From an uncultured Synechococcus sp. (GTDB lineage Bacteria; Cyanobacteriota; Cyanobacteriia; PCC-6307; Cyanobiaceae), in the NCBI GenBank assembly GCA_903855705.1, contig CAINZT010000140.1:1-41670 (forward strand): a DNA stretch of 41,670 bases, in the 5' to 3' direction. Shown in pieces: positions 5,006 to 27,909 of this stretch (position 1 is the first letter of the stretch; each line of letters opens with the position of its first letter). The translations under genes were made by a program, and so were the position numbers. The notes under the pieces are model-generated. The model did no database searches. It saw nothing but the letters and a program-made list of their open reading frames with translations, and had not been told where the DNA came from.

Positions 5006-6934
5006 ATGAACCAACGCTGGCGCCTCATCGCTCTTTGGCTTCTGCCCGTTGGGGTGGCCCTGTTCTTCGGCTGGCAAATCCTCGGCAATGGCGGCGCCGC
5101 CCGCCTCGGCCAGGGGGGCCCGGCGGGCCCAACCGTGGCACCCCGCAATGCGGCCGTGGCCCGCATGACCTACGGGCGTTTTCTCGATTACGTCGATGCT
5201 GGCCGGGTCACCGCCGTTGACATCTTCGATGGCGGCCGCACCGCAGTGGTGGAGGCCTCCGATCCCGACCTCGATAACCGGGTCCAGCGCCTGCGGGTCG
5301 ACCTGCCCGGCCTGGCCCCCGAGCTGATCAACAGCCTCAAGGCCAAGGGCATCAGCTTTGACATCCATCCGCCCAAGGCCGCGCCGCCCCTGCTGGGCAT
5401 CCTCGGCAACCTGCTCTTCCCGCTGCTGCTGATCGGCTCCCTGATCCTGCTGGCGCGCCGCTCCTCCAACATGCCGGGCGGTCCTGGCCAGGCCATGCAG
5501 TTCGGCAAAACCAAGGCCCGCTTCCTGATGGAAGCGGAAACGGGTGTGAAATTCGATGATGTGGCGGGCGTTGAGGAAGCCAAGCAAGACCTCCAGGAAG
5601 TGGTCACCTTCCTAAAAACCCCTGAGCGCTTCACCTCCGTTGGCGCCAAGATTCCCCGGGGTGTGTTGCTCGTGGGCCCTCCCGGAACGGGCAAGACCCT
5701 CCTGGCCAAAGCGATTGCCGGCGAAGCGGGCGTGCCCTTCTTCTCCCTTTCAGGGTCGGAATTTGTTGAGATGTTCGTGGGCGTGGGCGCCAGCCGGGTG
5801 CGCGATCTGTTCAAGCGGGCCAAGGAAAACAGCCCCTGCCTGATCTTCATTGATGAGATTGATGCGGTGGGCCGCCAGCGGGGAGCTGGCATCGGTGGTG
5901 GCAACGACGAAAGGGAGCAAACCCTCAACCAGTTGCTCACCGAGATGGATGGCTTTGAGGGCAACAGCGGCATCATCATCATTGCGGCCACCAACCGGGC
6001 CGACGTGCTTGATTCAGCCCTAATGCGTCCAGGTCGTTTTGACCGCCAGGTGATGGTGGATGCCCCCGACATCAAGGGCCGCATCTCGATCCTGAAAGTC
6101 CACAGCCGTAACAAGAAACTGGGCGACGACGTGTCGCTTGAGGCCGTGGCCCGCCGCACCCCTGGCTTCACTGGCGCCGATCTTGCCAACCTGCTCAATG
6201 AGGCGGCAATCCTCACAGCTCGGCGCCGCAAGGAGGCCACTGGCAATGCCGAAATTGACGATGCCGTCGACCGGATCATCGCCGGCATGGAGGGCAAACC
6301 GCTCACCGATGGCCGCAGCAAGCGCCTGATCGCCTATCACGAAGTCGGCCATGCCCTGGTGGGCACGCTGGTTAAGCAGCATGACCCCGTCCAGAAAGTC
6401 ACCCTGATCCCCCGGGGCCAGGCCCAGGGTCTCACCTGGTTTTCCCCCGATGAGGACCAAATGCTGGTGAGCCGTTCCCAGTTACGGGCGCGGATCATGG
6501 GAGCCCTGGGCGGCCGGGCGGCAGAAGCGGTGGTTTTTGGCCACGCCGAAGTCACCACCGGGGCCGGCGGAGATATTCAGATGGTGGCCTCCATGGCCCG
6601 CCAGATGGTGACCCGGTTCGGCATGAGTGATTTGGGACCCATGTCCCTGGAGGCTGGCAACCAGGAGGTGTTCCTTGGCCGCGATCTCATGACCCGCAGC
6701 GACATGTCCGATTCGATTGCTAGTCGCATTGATGATGCCGTGCGCCAGATCGTTCAAAGCTGCTACACAGAGACCCTGGCCCTGGTCAATGCCAACCGCC
6801 CTTGCATGGACCGAGTAGTGGAACTGCTGATCGAAAAAGAAAGCCTCGATGGCGAAGAATTCCGGTCGTTGGTGGCTGAATTCACTGAGGTGCCCGTGAA
6901 GGAGCGCTTCATGCCTGTGCTCGGGGCAAGTTGA
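5006..6934 (+). CDS. ftsH: ATP-dependent zinc metalloprotease FtsH (FtsH2-like, thylakoid)
   Basis: A 642-residue membrane AAA+ protease that degrades damaged membrane proteins; the cyanobacterial FtsH2 type works with FtsH3 in photosystem II repair (D1 turnover). Visible: TM helices at ~6-25 and 128-150; a lumenal domain with [19 protein letters not shown] and a DPDLDNRVQ stretch, which resembles FtsH2 rather than FtsH1/3; Walker A GPPGTGKT (224-231); Walker B LIFIDEID (279-286); second region of homology [20 protein letters not shown] (328-347); zinc-binding HEVGH (445-449). ATG 5006 gives an N-terminus like the family ([14 protein letters not shown]); an in-frame TTG at 4973 would add 11 basic residues and is less likely. 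A very strong hairpin terminator follows. Confidence 0.96.
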
Positions 6935-24516: not shown

Positions 24517-24777
24517 TCAGCCGGCTTCGGCCAGCAGCCAATCCGCCATCTCCATGCGCAAGGCGTAGGCCTCCTCAAAGGCCCCCGCGTTTTCGAGGCT
24601 GGCCAGCCGCTGTTCCAGCCAGTCCTGCAGCAACCCGATCAGGGGAGTCGCCTGGGCAAGTGAGGCGTCAGATGGCAGCTCAGATGCTTGGTTAGAGGGA
24701 TGGTCCGTTGCCCGATCAGCCAACTGGTCAATGGGCTGGTCGCCGGGCAACAGCCCCCCATCCAGACAAGGAACCAT
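24517..24777 (-). CDS. Small acidic hypothetical protein
   Basis: An 86-residue frame from ATG 24777 to TGA 24517. Residues ~1-40 are polar, with repeated Asp/Gln/Ser (QPIDQLADRATDHPSNQASE). Residues ~45-86 look like two amphipathic helices (LLQDWLEQRLASLENAG and FEEAYALRMEMADWLLAEAG), which is the part most likely to be conserved. I do not recognise it. It lies 122 bp downstream of the AAA+/polyferredoxin fusion on the same strand and may share its transcript. No good ribosome binding site is seen at the ATG; a start closer to the helices is possible. Supported mainly by strand, context and the helix pattern. Confidence 0.5.
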   Translation of the reverse strand: MVPCLDGGLLPGDQPIDQLADRATDHPSNQASELPSDASLAQATPLIGLLQDWLEQRLASLENAGAFEEAYALRMEMADWLLAEAG

Positions 24778-24899: not shown

Positions 24900-27125
24900 T
24901 CAGGGCAGGGCCACCAGCCAGCGGCCGCCGGCGGCCAGGGCCAGGGCCAGTAAGGAGGCCGCCGGTAGGGCAGAACTGCCGGCGCGCAGCAGGCGACGCA
25001 GCAGCACCAAGGCGCCCGCCAAACCGACCAGCACGGCCACGCTCTGGCAGAAGCCGATCACATGGCCATCGGCGCTCCAGCTCGGCAGCTGGGCGGCGAA
25101 TGCGGCATGAATCGGGGCGAAGGACACAGGGAGAACCGTGCCGGCTTCGGCCATGCCCAGGGGCAGGTATCGGGCCAGCAGCAACCCCCACAGCAGGGGC
25201 AGCAGGGCATAAAGAATGCGGCGCAGGCGTTGGGGCGTGAACCAGGGCCGCATCAACAGGAAGCCCAAGGACGGCAGGGCCAGGGCCAGGGCGCCAAAGG
25301 CCAGCCGCGGCAGCAACGGACCCTCGCTGAGGCTGGACGGGGCCAGGGGCAGCGCCCCCAGCAGCCGCTGCCAGTGGTGCAGGGTCAGGTCGCCCGCCAG
25401 CACCAGGATCAGACCCGCCTCCGCCTCCGGCGCGTCCAAGTCCCGTTGCAGATCGGCCGCCGGTGGCCGGAGGCTGAGTTGCACCGAGCGGTGGGGACAG
25501 GCCTGGGCGCAGCTCATGCAGAGCACGCAATTGCGGTTGTTGCTGAGGTGGGCCGGGTGGGTACCCAGCGGGCAGCCGGCCGTGGCCAAGCCTTCGCCAT
25601 GGGCGGGTCCGCCCTTGAAACAGCCGTAGGTGCTGCAGCTGCCACTGCAGGTCCCCACCTGGGCGCGCAGTTCCAGGATCGACAGCTTGGCGAACAGGCC
25701 ATTCATGCCCCCCACCGGGCACAGATACCGGCACCAGAAACGTTTCTCAAAGCGCAAGGAGCCGATCACGGCCCCTGCGGTGATCAACAGGAGCAGACAA
25801 CTGCTCATCCAGGCGGTGTTCTCCAGGTCGCAGACCGATTCCCAGAGCAGGATCGCGGCAAAACCGGCCGCTAGCAGGGGTGCCGCCCAATCGTCGCTGG
25901 ATCCCCTGGGCCACTCCGCCGGTGTCCAGCCCAGCAGCCGGGCCAGCCGTTGGCTGATCTCCCCCCAAACCATGAAGGGGCAGACCGCACACCAGAGCCG
26001 GCCCACCAGCGGATAGCTCAGCAGGATCAGGGGCCACCACCAGGCCCAGAAGAGCGTGAGGCCGCCGTTGTGGGCCCGGTCCTGGGGCCCCAGCCACAGC
26101 CAAAGGTTGACCAGCACAAACAGCCAGCTGACCAGCCCGAACAGCACCACCTTCCAGACCAGGGGATTGCGCAGCCACTCGCGCAGGCCGGGCTTCCAGC
26201 GCCAGAGGTCGAAGCGGAAGCGCTGTTGGCGCGCCGGGGTCCAGAAGACCTCCTCGGGCAGCTGGGCCAACTCCGGACCGGCGGCTTTGGCACCCTGGCC
26301 GGCCGGGGCAGGCCGGGCCTGCTGCAGGGCCCGGTTGAGCAGCTCTTCGAGCTCCTGCAGGTTGCCGGGGAAGTCGTAGCTCTGCAGCCGCTGGATCACC
26401 GCCTCCGGCACCTGGGGAGGCTGCTGCCAGCCCAGGGCACGGCTGCGCATGCGCACGCTGTAGCGCACCCACTCGCCCAGGTCCTGGCGCCGCACCCGCA
26501 AAGCCGGCACCCGGATCGAGAGGCAGAGGCGATCCACCTCCGGCACGGCCACTTCCGAGGTGAAAAACACCCGGCCAGGGAACTGGTGCAGGCTGCCGCC
26601 GGGGCCGCCGGCGCGCCATTGGCCGGTGCGGGCAAGGCTGAGCAGGCTCTGCTGCAGGGGGGCCGGCACCTGGTCGATTTTGTCAATGAGTAGGGCACCA
26701 CTGCCGAGGCTCTCCAGCAGGGAACCGGCCCCGTCGCTGCTGGCGGAGCCAAACAGCTCGGCCCCGTCCTCGCGCAGCAATGCACCATCAAGGCGCACCA
26801 TCAGCTGGCGTCGGGCGGGCGAGCCGAAGTGGATCAGGGCGGCCAGGTTGTCCTTCTCCAGGCCGGGCTCACCGCTGATCAACACGGGCCTGGCCTGGCC
26901 GTCTTCCGAGGCCTGACGCACGGCCTCCCGCAGCCGGGTGGCATAGCGGCTCGTGCCGACAATGCCGCGGCGGGCCCGCACCACCAGGTGGGGCGCCAGA
27001 CGGCGGAAGCTTTCGGCACTGGGTAAGGGGGCCTCGGCTGCCACCTGGGCGCGGTTGGGATCTAGCGCTCCCGCCGGGGGATCGGCGAGGGGGCCATCCG
27101 CTGCTGGACTGGGTTGCTCGACCAA
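24900..27125 (-). CDS. Fusion of a degenerate AAA+ (NtrC-type) domain and a membrane 4Fe-4S polyferredoxin
   Basis: A 741-residue fusion. Residues ~50-270 follow an NtrC-type AAA+ domain from RGIVGTSRYATRLREAV through ELFG to DFPGNLQELEELLNRAL (sensor II-like). But Walker A reads GEPGLEKD (85-92), Walker B reads ALLIDKI (144-150) in place of LFLDEI, and no GAFTGA sigma-54 loop follows ELFG. Residues ~320-741 are a NapH/NosR/CcoG-like membrane protein: helices near 322-346, 357-377, 413-430, 438-455 and several beyond 605; Cys379/382 (CAVCP), Cys465/469 (CRYLCP), Cys493/497/502/518, and a classical cluster Cys533-536-539-543. I infer a membrane redox protein or sensor with a non-ATPase AAA+ module. 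The start is TTG 27125; GTG 27044 is an alternative. Divergent from the glutathione transferase gene. Confidence 0.88.
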   Translation of the reverse strand: MVEQPSPAADGPLADPPAGALDPNRAQVAAEAPLPSAESFRRLAPHLVVRARRGIVGTSRYATRLREAVRQASEDGQARPVLISGEPGLEKDNLAALIHFGSPARRQLMVRLDGALLREDGAELFGSASSDGAGSLLESLGSGALLIDKIDQVPAPLQQSLLSLARTGQWRAGGPGGSLHQFPGRVFFTSEVAVPEVDRLCLSIRVPALRVRRQDLGEWVRYSVRMRSRALGWQQPPQVPEAVIQRLQSYDFPGNLQELEELLNRALQQARPAPAGQGAKAAGPELAQLPEEVFWTPARQQRFRFDLWRWKPGLREWLRNPLVWKVVLFGLVSWLFVLVNLWLWLGPQDRAHNGGLTLFWAWWWPLILLSYPLVGRLWCAVCPFMVWGEISQRLARLLGWTPAEWPRGSSDDWAAPLLAAGFAAILLWESVCDLENTAWMSSCLLLLITAGAVIGSLRFEKRFWCRYLCPVGGMNGLFAKLSILELRAQVGTCSGSCSTYGCFKGGPAHGEGLATAGCPLGTHPAHLSNNRNCVLCMSCAQACPHRSVQLSLRPPAADLQRDLDAPEAEAGLILVLAGDLTLHHWQRLLGALPLAPSSLSEGPLLPRLAFGALALALPSLGFLLMRPWFTPQRLRRILYALLPLLWGLLLARYLPLGMAEAGTVLPVSFAPIHAAFAAQLPSWSADGHVIGFCQSVAVLVGLAGALVLLRRLLRAGSSALPAASLLALALAAGGRWLVALP

Positions 27126-27327
27126 GGGGGCCCGCGCGGCTTAGCCCCATTGTCGACCGGACTGGCGCCAGGGGCCGGCCCAGGGAATTCGCCAAGGCCC
27201 TGCCAATCAACCGGCCCAGCCCCCAGCCAATCCGCCTGCCAAACGGCCCGGGTGGGCGCCGGGCGCAGCCCAGGGTTCTAAGGCGTTTGCGGGCTGGATG
27301 ATGGAGGGGCACTGCACCCCTTTGGCC

Positions 27328-27909
27328 ATGGGCCTCACCCTGTTTGGCGGCCTGCGCAGCCGCGCCTCAATGCCCCGCTGGTACATGGCCGAAAAGGGCA
27401 TTGCCTACGACTGGACCCTGGTGGACATGGGCGCCAAGGAGCACCACCAGGACCCCTTTCTGGCGATCAATCCCTTCGGCAAGGTGCCCGCCCTAATCGA
27501 CCGGGATCCAGCCCTACCGGGGGGTGAACTGCGCCTGTTTGAAAGTGGCGCGATCCTGCTCTATTTGGCCGAGCGCTACGGCCAGGAATTCACTAGTGAC
27601 GCCGAACGGGCCCTGGCCCAGCAATGGATACTGTTTGCCAATGCCACTTTGGCCACGGCCCTGTTCAACCCCAGCCAGCGGGAAACGGAATTCCCCCGCT
27701 TGCTGGGAATTCTCAATGGGTTGTTGGTGCCAGGGGGATCGATCACCGGGGGGAGCTGGGGCGTGGCCGATTGCGCCATCAATGCCCACCTCGCCTACTT
27801 GCCGATCTTCTTTCCCCAGATCGATCTCTCCCCCTGGCCGGCCGTAGAAGCCACGATTCGCCTTACCCAGGAGAACCCCACCTACCAGCAGGCCATGGCC
27901 GTGGGCTAA
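27328..27909 (+). CDS. Glutathione S-transferase family protein
   Basis: A ~193-residue GST. The thioredoxin-fold N-terminal domain shows LTLFGGLRSRASMPRWYMAEKG, with the Ser in SRAS a candidate for activating glutathione thiol, then NPFGKVPALIDRD with the cis-Pro of the glutathione site, and ESGAILLYLAERYG, the Glu-Ser that binds the gamma-glutamyl group. An all-helical C-terminal domain follows (~95-190) with SWGVADCAINAHLAYLP, the N-capping box region. Likely roles are detoxification or redox handling; the substrate is unknown. The start is ATG 27328 because the family begins at the first strand; in-frame ATGs at 27298 and 27301 would add ten or nine residues. Confidence 0.9.
   Translation: MGLTLFGGLRSRASMPRWYMAEKGIAYDWTLVDMGAKEHHQDPFLAINPFGKVPALIDRDPALPGGELRLFESGAILLYLAERYGQEFTSDAERALAQQWILFANATLATALFNPSQRETEFPRLLGILNGLLVPGGSITGGSWGVADCAINAHLAYLPIFFPQIDLSPWPAVEATIRLTQENPTYQQAMAVG

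Follow-up and report, generated by a model that had tools for sequence, protein, structure and literature searches.

We find that the window, by which we mean the whole 41,670-nucleotide stretch of DNA that was analysed, encodes a real, widespread and uncharacterised protein, by sequence a membrane iron-sulfur protein, joined to an NtrC-type head that has lost the ATPase motifs of that class. A single uninterrupted frame of 741 amino acids runs on the minus strand from 27125 to 24900, and proteins of this kind are present in about two thirds of the sampled cyanobacteria. We believe, with a probability of roughly 0.55, that the protein is not a transcription factor but carries out redox chemistry in the membrane through [4Fe-4S] clusters, with a regulatory head that does not hydrolyse nucleotide and has perhaps kept the ability to bind it. 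Annotation as a nitrogen regulator that interacts with sigma-54 is misleading in organisms that are mostly without sigma-54, and the result puts this right. A search of the open-access literature, which leaves most subscription journals outside it, found no published description of the AAA+/polyferredoxin architecture.

The original prediction, which was made from the letters alone, had an NtrC-like AAA+ region and a membrane polyferredoxin in one frame, and the open reading frame and Pfam both agree with it. Matches above the curated cut-offs were to Sigma54_activat (1.9e-08, residues 56–171), AAA_lid_14 (residues 210–268) and Fer4_5 (residues 445–481). The AlphaFold model has a mean pLDDT of 85, with values below 50 in the iron-sulfur loop. 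The N-terminal LVEQPSPAA is also present in a near relative (L051). We ruled out a sequencing frameshift or an assembly join because the identical fusion is found again in three near relatives (90–92% identity) and in more than 100 other loci. The features of the gene and its surroundings are collected in Table 1.

Table 1. Features of the fusion gene and its neighbours, in window coordinates.
Feature	Position	Strand	Basis or remark
Whole gene, pseudo-AAA+/membrane polyferredoxin fusion, 741 aa, TTG start	24900..27125	-	ORF and Pfam
NtrC-type AAA+ domain with lid, residues 50-275	26301..26978	-	Pfam; Foldseek
Walker A variant GEPGLEKD, residues 85-92, Lys91 invariant	26850..26873	-	Motif comparison
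Walker B variant LLIDKID, residues 145-151, another residue for the catalytic Glu in all relatives	26673..26693	-	Motif comparison
Sensor II region FPGNLQEL, residues 252-259, Gln local	26349..26372	-	Motif comparison
Four predicted membrane helices, residues 320-460	25746..26168	-	AlphaFold helices and hydropathy
First conserved Cys pair CAVCP (379-383)	25977..25991	-	Alignment
Second conserved Cys pair CRYLCP (465-470)	25716..25733	-	Alignment
Ferredoxin-like loop, eight conserved Cys (493-545), two [4Fe-4S] sites proposed	25491..25649	-	Pfam and alignment
C-terminal membrane helices, residues 604-738	24912..25316	-	AlphaFold helices and hydropathy
Divergent glutathione S-transferase-like gene	27298..27909	+	Same arrangement in 10/25 family loci
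Small 86-aa frame just downstream of the gene	24517-24777	-	Same orientation in 4/25 family loci

The head has the NtrC-type AAA+ fold of sigma-54 activators according to Pfam, Foldseek and alignment; the Foldseek matches were to NtrX, FleQ and PspF, with TM-scores of about 0.7–0.75 of the target where the structure has a single domain. The three altered motifs are present as they had first been read, and we compared them across 169 aligned relatives from both the window's clade and its sister clade. Walker A is less broken than had been claimed, since its Lys is kept in all 169 sequences and the window protein has Asp where activators have Glu after that Lys (GESGTGKE in NifA). The P-loop glycine position is Glu in 95 of 100 sequences from the window's family, which could mean weaker nucleotide binding. 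Walker B is degenerate, as predicted: 84 of the 100 family members keep the Asp, the 52 members of the window's clade outside the family all have Asn there, the sister clade has no fixed residue at this position, and the catalytic Glu that an activator would have after the Asp is found in 0/169. The GAFTGA loop is absent after ELFG, both in the window protein, where this had been noticed, and in every aligned member. When aligned against NifA, this loop and a further segment are gaps; the latter we take, from what is known of PspF, to be the arginine-finger helix, so the fingers of an activator would be deleted too. The reading of Gln for the sensor II Arg is correct for the window but is not general, since Arg is present in 94/100 relatives from the family (it is variable overall), which makes the Gln local to the window's group. 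The losses make it very probable that the head is no longer an ATPase. A decaying pseudo-domain was ruled out by dN/dS values for the head of 0.05–0.17 against near relatives, which indicate purifying selection, weaker in most comparisons than that on the iron-sulfur core.

No helix-turn-helix or other DNA-binding domain was found in any member scanned with Pfam, and the head has no cognate sigma-54 that we could find. Two profile families detected no rpoN in the window's genome, as was expected from the prediction that cyanobacteria lack it; the assembly is 93% complete, so the absence is strong but not absolute. Across 194 genomes of the class there were four short rpoN matches (33–41 profile positions), one of which (38 positions) was just above the cut-off and is read as spurious. 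We rejected an intact sigma-54 system because no rpoN was found in the window's own genome and the matches in the class are short. Surveys have also reported sigma-54 as missing from cyanobacteria with rare exceptions (PMC3162934; PMC12316311). Three outcomes had been named in advance as counting against the prediction, namely relatives with intact Walker motifs and GAFTGA, a frameshift, and rpoN in this genome, and none of them appeared: no aligned homologue has GAFTGA or a complete Walker set. Separately, a fragmented cyanobacterial assembly (G152) contains a 495-aa frame (L134) with a true GAFTGA and 251 bits to Sigma54_activat, which is either contamination or a rare genuine activator.

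In the membrane half, the original count of about 12 Cys in cluster-like spacing holds, and all 12 are common to both clades (379, 382, 465, 469, 493, 497, 502, 518, 533, 536, 539 and 543). Their spacing would fit three [4Fe-4S] clusters, which we consider a probable number. From the helix order in the model, the Cys motifs and the head would lie on the same, cytoplasmic, side. The protein has the Fer4_5 helices with paired Cys and the 4Fe-4S motif of a NapH-like membrane polyferredoxin. Its match to TIGR02163 (1.4e-11) scores 44.5 bits against a cut-off of 213.05, which places it outside the NapH/MauN family proper. Searching solved structures by sequence with this half gave only weak matches to complex I.

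The wide cyanobacterial spread, the usual cNMP-like front domain and the cysteine-synthase-linked sister clade all go beyond the original prediction. Of the 101 genomes of the window's family 34 have a relative, and so do 265 of the 390 that were sampled from the class; a scan of genome contigs confirmed 502 relatives, of which 80 were kept. Hardly any strong NtrC-type AAA+ match in the sampled cyanobacteria comes from outside this family of proteins. When a phylum sample was searched with a sister-clade protein, the matches beyond the class covered AAA+, cNMP-like or polyferredoxin parts alone, and none was full-length. Other phyla were sampled through plasmids only, where five records match; in two, both cyanobacterial, the match spans the AAA+/polyferredoxin junction, and in the remaining three it is confined to the polyferredoxin core. 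A record titled Bifidobacterium breve (L097) has a member at 67% identity, and this record is probably a cyanobacterial bin under a wrong label.

Compared with most members from outside its family, which have about 850 aa and a cNMP-binding-like domain (Pfam) at the front, the window's protein is a trimmed form; a few lineages outside the family are also without the domain. By inspection, the phosphate-binding cassette of this domain is incomplete in the relatives: neither clade has its Arg, and the window's clade is without its Glu as well. Three genomes (G124, G138 and G151) have frames of 1134–1137 aa with two Sigma54_activat matches, and the one at 6104–9505 of L200 (G124) has the cNMP-like domain and two AAA+ domains followed by the polyferredoxin. 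Across genomes, the presence or absence of the protein did not go with that of hydrogenase (Fisher p 0.53) or of cytochrome bd (p 1.0), with phylogeny ignored. A frame of 475 aa in the window's genome (G000:C101:59-1306) resembles a hydrogenase large subunit (PF00374).

Seventeen sequences, which we call the sister clade, group together with full support at the end of a long branch, although the tree is from a quick search and its long-branch joining may be false. Gly-Lys-Thr is kept in their P-loop, which is canonical. In 14 of the 17 loci the next frame downstream, or the next but one, is a cysteine synthase gene in the same orientation, and the one that we scanned is a cysteine synthase A (TIGR01139). 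Cytochrome bd, SQR-III-like flavoproteins, rhodanese and DUF302 are found near single or few loci, and a plasmid locus has DsrE and catalase-peroxidase nearby. For the window's clade there are no conserved neighbours outside the window's family, so the neighbourhood gives no pathway link.

We picture a membrane electron-transfer protein, seen here in cyanobacteria only, whose eight predicted membrane helices would hold the three probable clusters. Its head, without the residues for hydrolysis and sigma-54 contact but with the phosphate-binding Lys, would most likely have an adenine nucleotide, or else a protein partner, as its ligand, and would switch how the membrane part is assembled or how electrons flow in it. 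The head had been proposed as a non-ATPase scaffold or sensor, and we agree in so far as an NtrC fold has been taken off sigma-54 work and placed on an iron-sulfur protein. However, "scaffold" ignores the invariant P-loop Lys, and nucleotide binding may be retained because of that Lys and the canonical P-loop of the sister clade. Conservation of Lys91 can also be structural, and there is perhaps one chance in a few that the head is a nucleotide-free platform for oligomerisation or for docking a protein partner. The degenerate Walker B, sensor I, sensor II and arginine-finger elements are consistent with such a platform, and since the cNMP-like domain of relatives is also without its usual binding residues, loss of ligand sites may be general; the Lys and the sister-clade P-loop argue against it. 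It is quite improbable that the "nitrogen regulator" annotation is right and the protein is a membrane-tethered, VpsR-like transcription regulator working without sigma-54, as none of the scanned members has a DNA-binding domain and the gene runs on into a membrane protein. VpsR does come close in its motifs, and Synechocystis slr1529 ("nitrogen assimilation regulatory protein"), which we compared by the product name it shares with a sister-clade member (AP018309), probably belongs to this family. Earlier work handled slr1529 as a regulator, and at 72 h its knockout showed one of the largest metabolite changes of those compared, but no growth change was reported (PMC5318462). Its transcript is lower in iron deprivation (PMC3516471) and under high copper (PMC4182526).

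An unlikely but compatible idea, which adds a substrate to the redox protein with a regulatory head that we prefer, is that both clades reduce or handle sulfur species or thiols and feed cysteine synthesis. Within our preferred reading, the linkage to cysteine synthase in the sister clade already suggests sulfur or thiol redox chemistry as a wider theme, and it is a concrete starting point for function; the cytochrome bd, SQR-like, rhodanese or DsrE genes found close to a few sister-clade loci also speak for the idea. Extending the theme to the window's own clade is only a guess: the divergent GST-like gene in 10 of 25 loci would suit it, but cysteine synthase is not a neighbour there and the GST adjacency may reflect only synteny among close species. 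We tentatively suggest, as a minority view of our own, an old cyanobacterium-wide redox class whose NtrC-type AAA+ domain gave up hydrolysis and now acts as a switch, gated by nucleotide, on the flow of electrons through membrane [4Fe-4S] clusters, with one branch devoted to sulfide capture with cysteine synthase.

Among known systems, NapH/MauN, NosR and CcoG are like the window protein in their Fer4_5 helices, CxxCP and CxxxCP pairs and 4Fe-4S loop. The window protein differs in its own 12-Cys pattern and its AAA+ head, and unlike in those systems we saw no NapG, NosZ or oxidase partner adjoining the genes of the window's clade. Stand-alone 4Fe-4S binding proteins of Deinococcus ficus, Natronorubrum and Sulfurovum are 22–30% identical over the polyferredoxin core, but the AAA+ head is unmatched and the neighbours are different. 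For the head, VpsR of Vibrio cholerae (7v2b), an NtrC-family AAA+ protein, is among the nearest solved relatives, and like the proteins described here it has the AAA+ fold and no GAFTGA and, as in part of the window's clade, Asn at the Walker B Asp (LLLND). VpsR is soluble, with a receiver and a DNA-binding domain, whereas the head described here is fused to a membrane iron-sulfur protein and is without the arginine-finger helix. VpsR functions without sigma-54 and shows that an NtrC-class AAA+ domain that has neither GAFTGA nor the Walker B Asp can still be useful to the cell.
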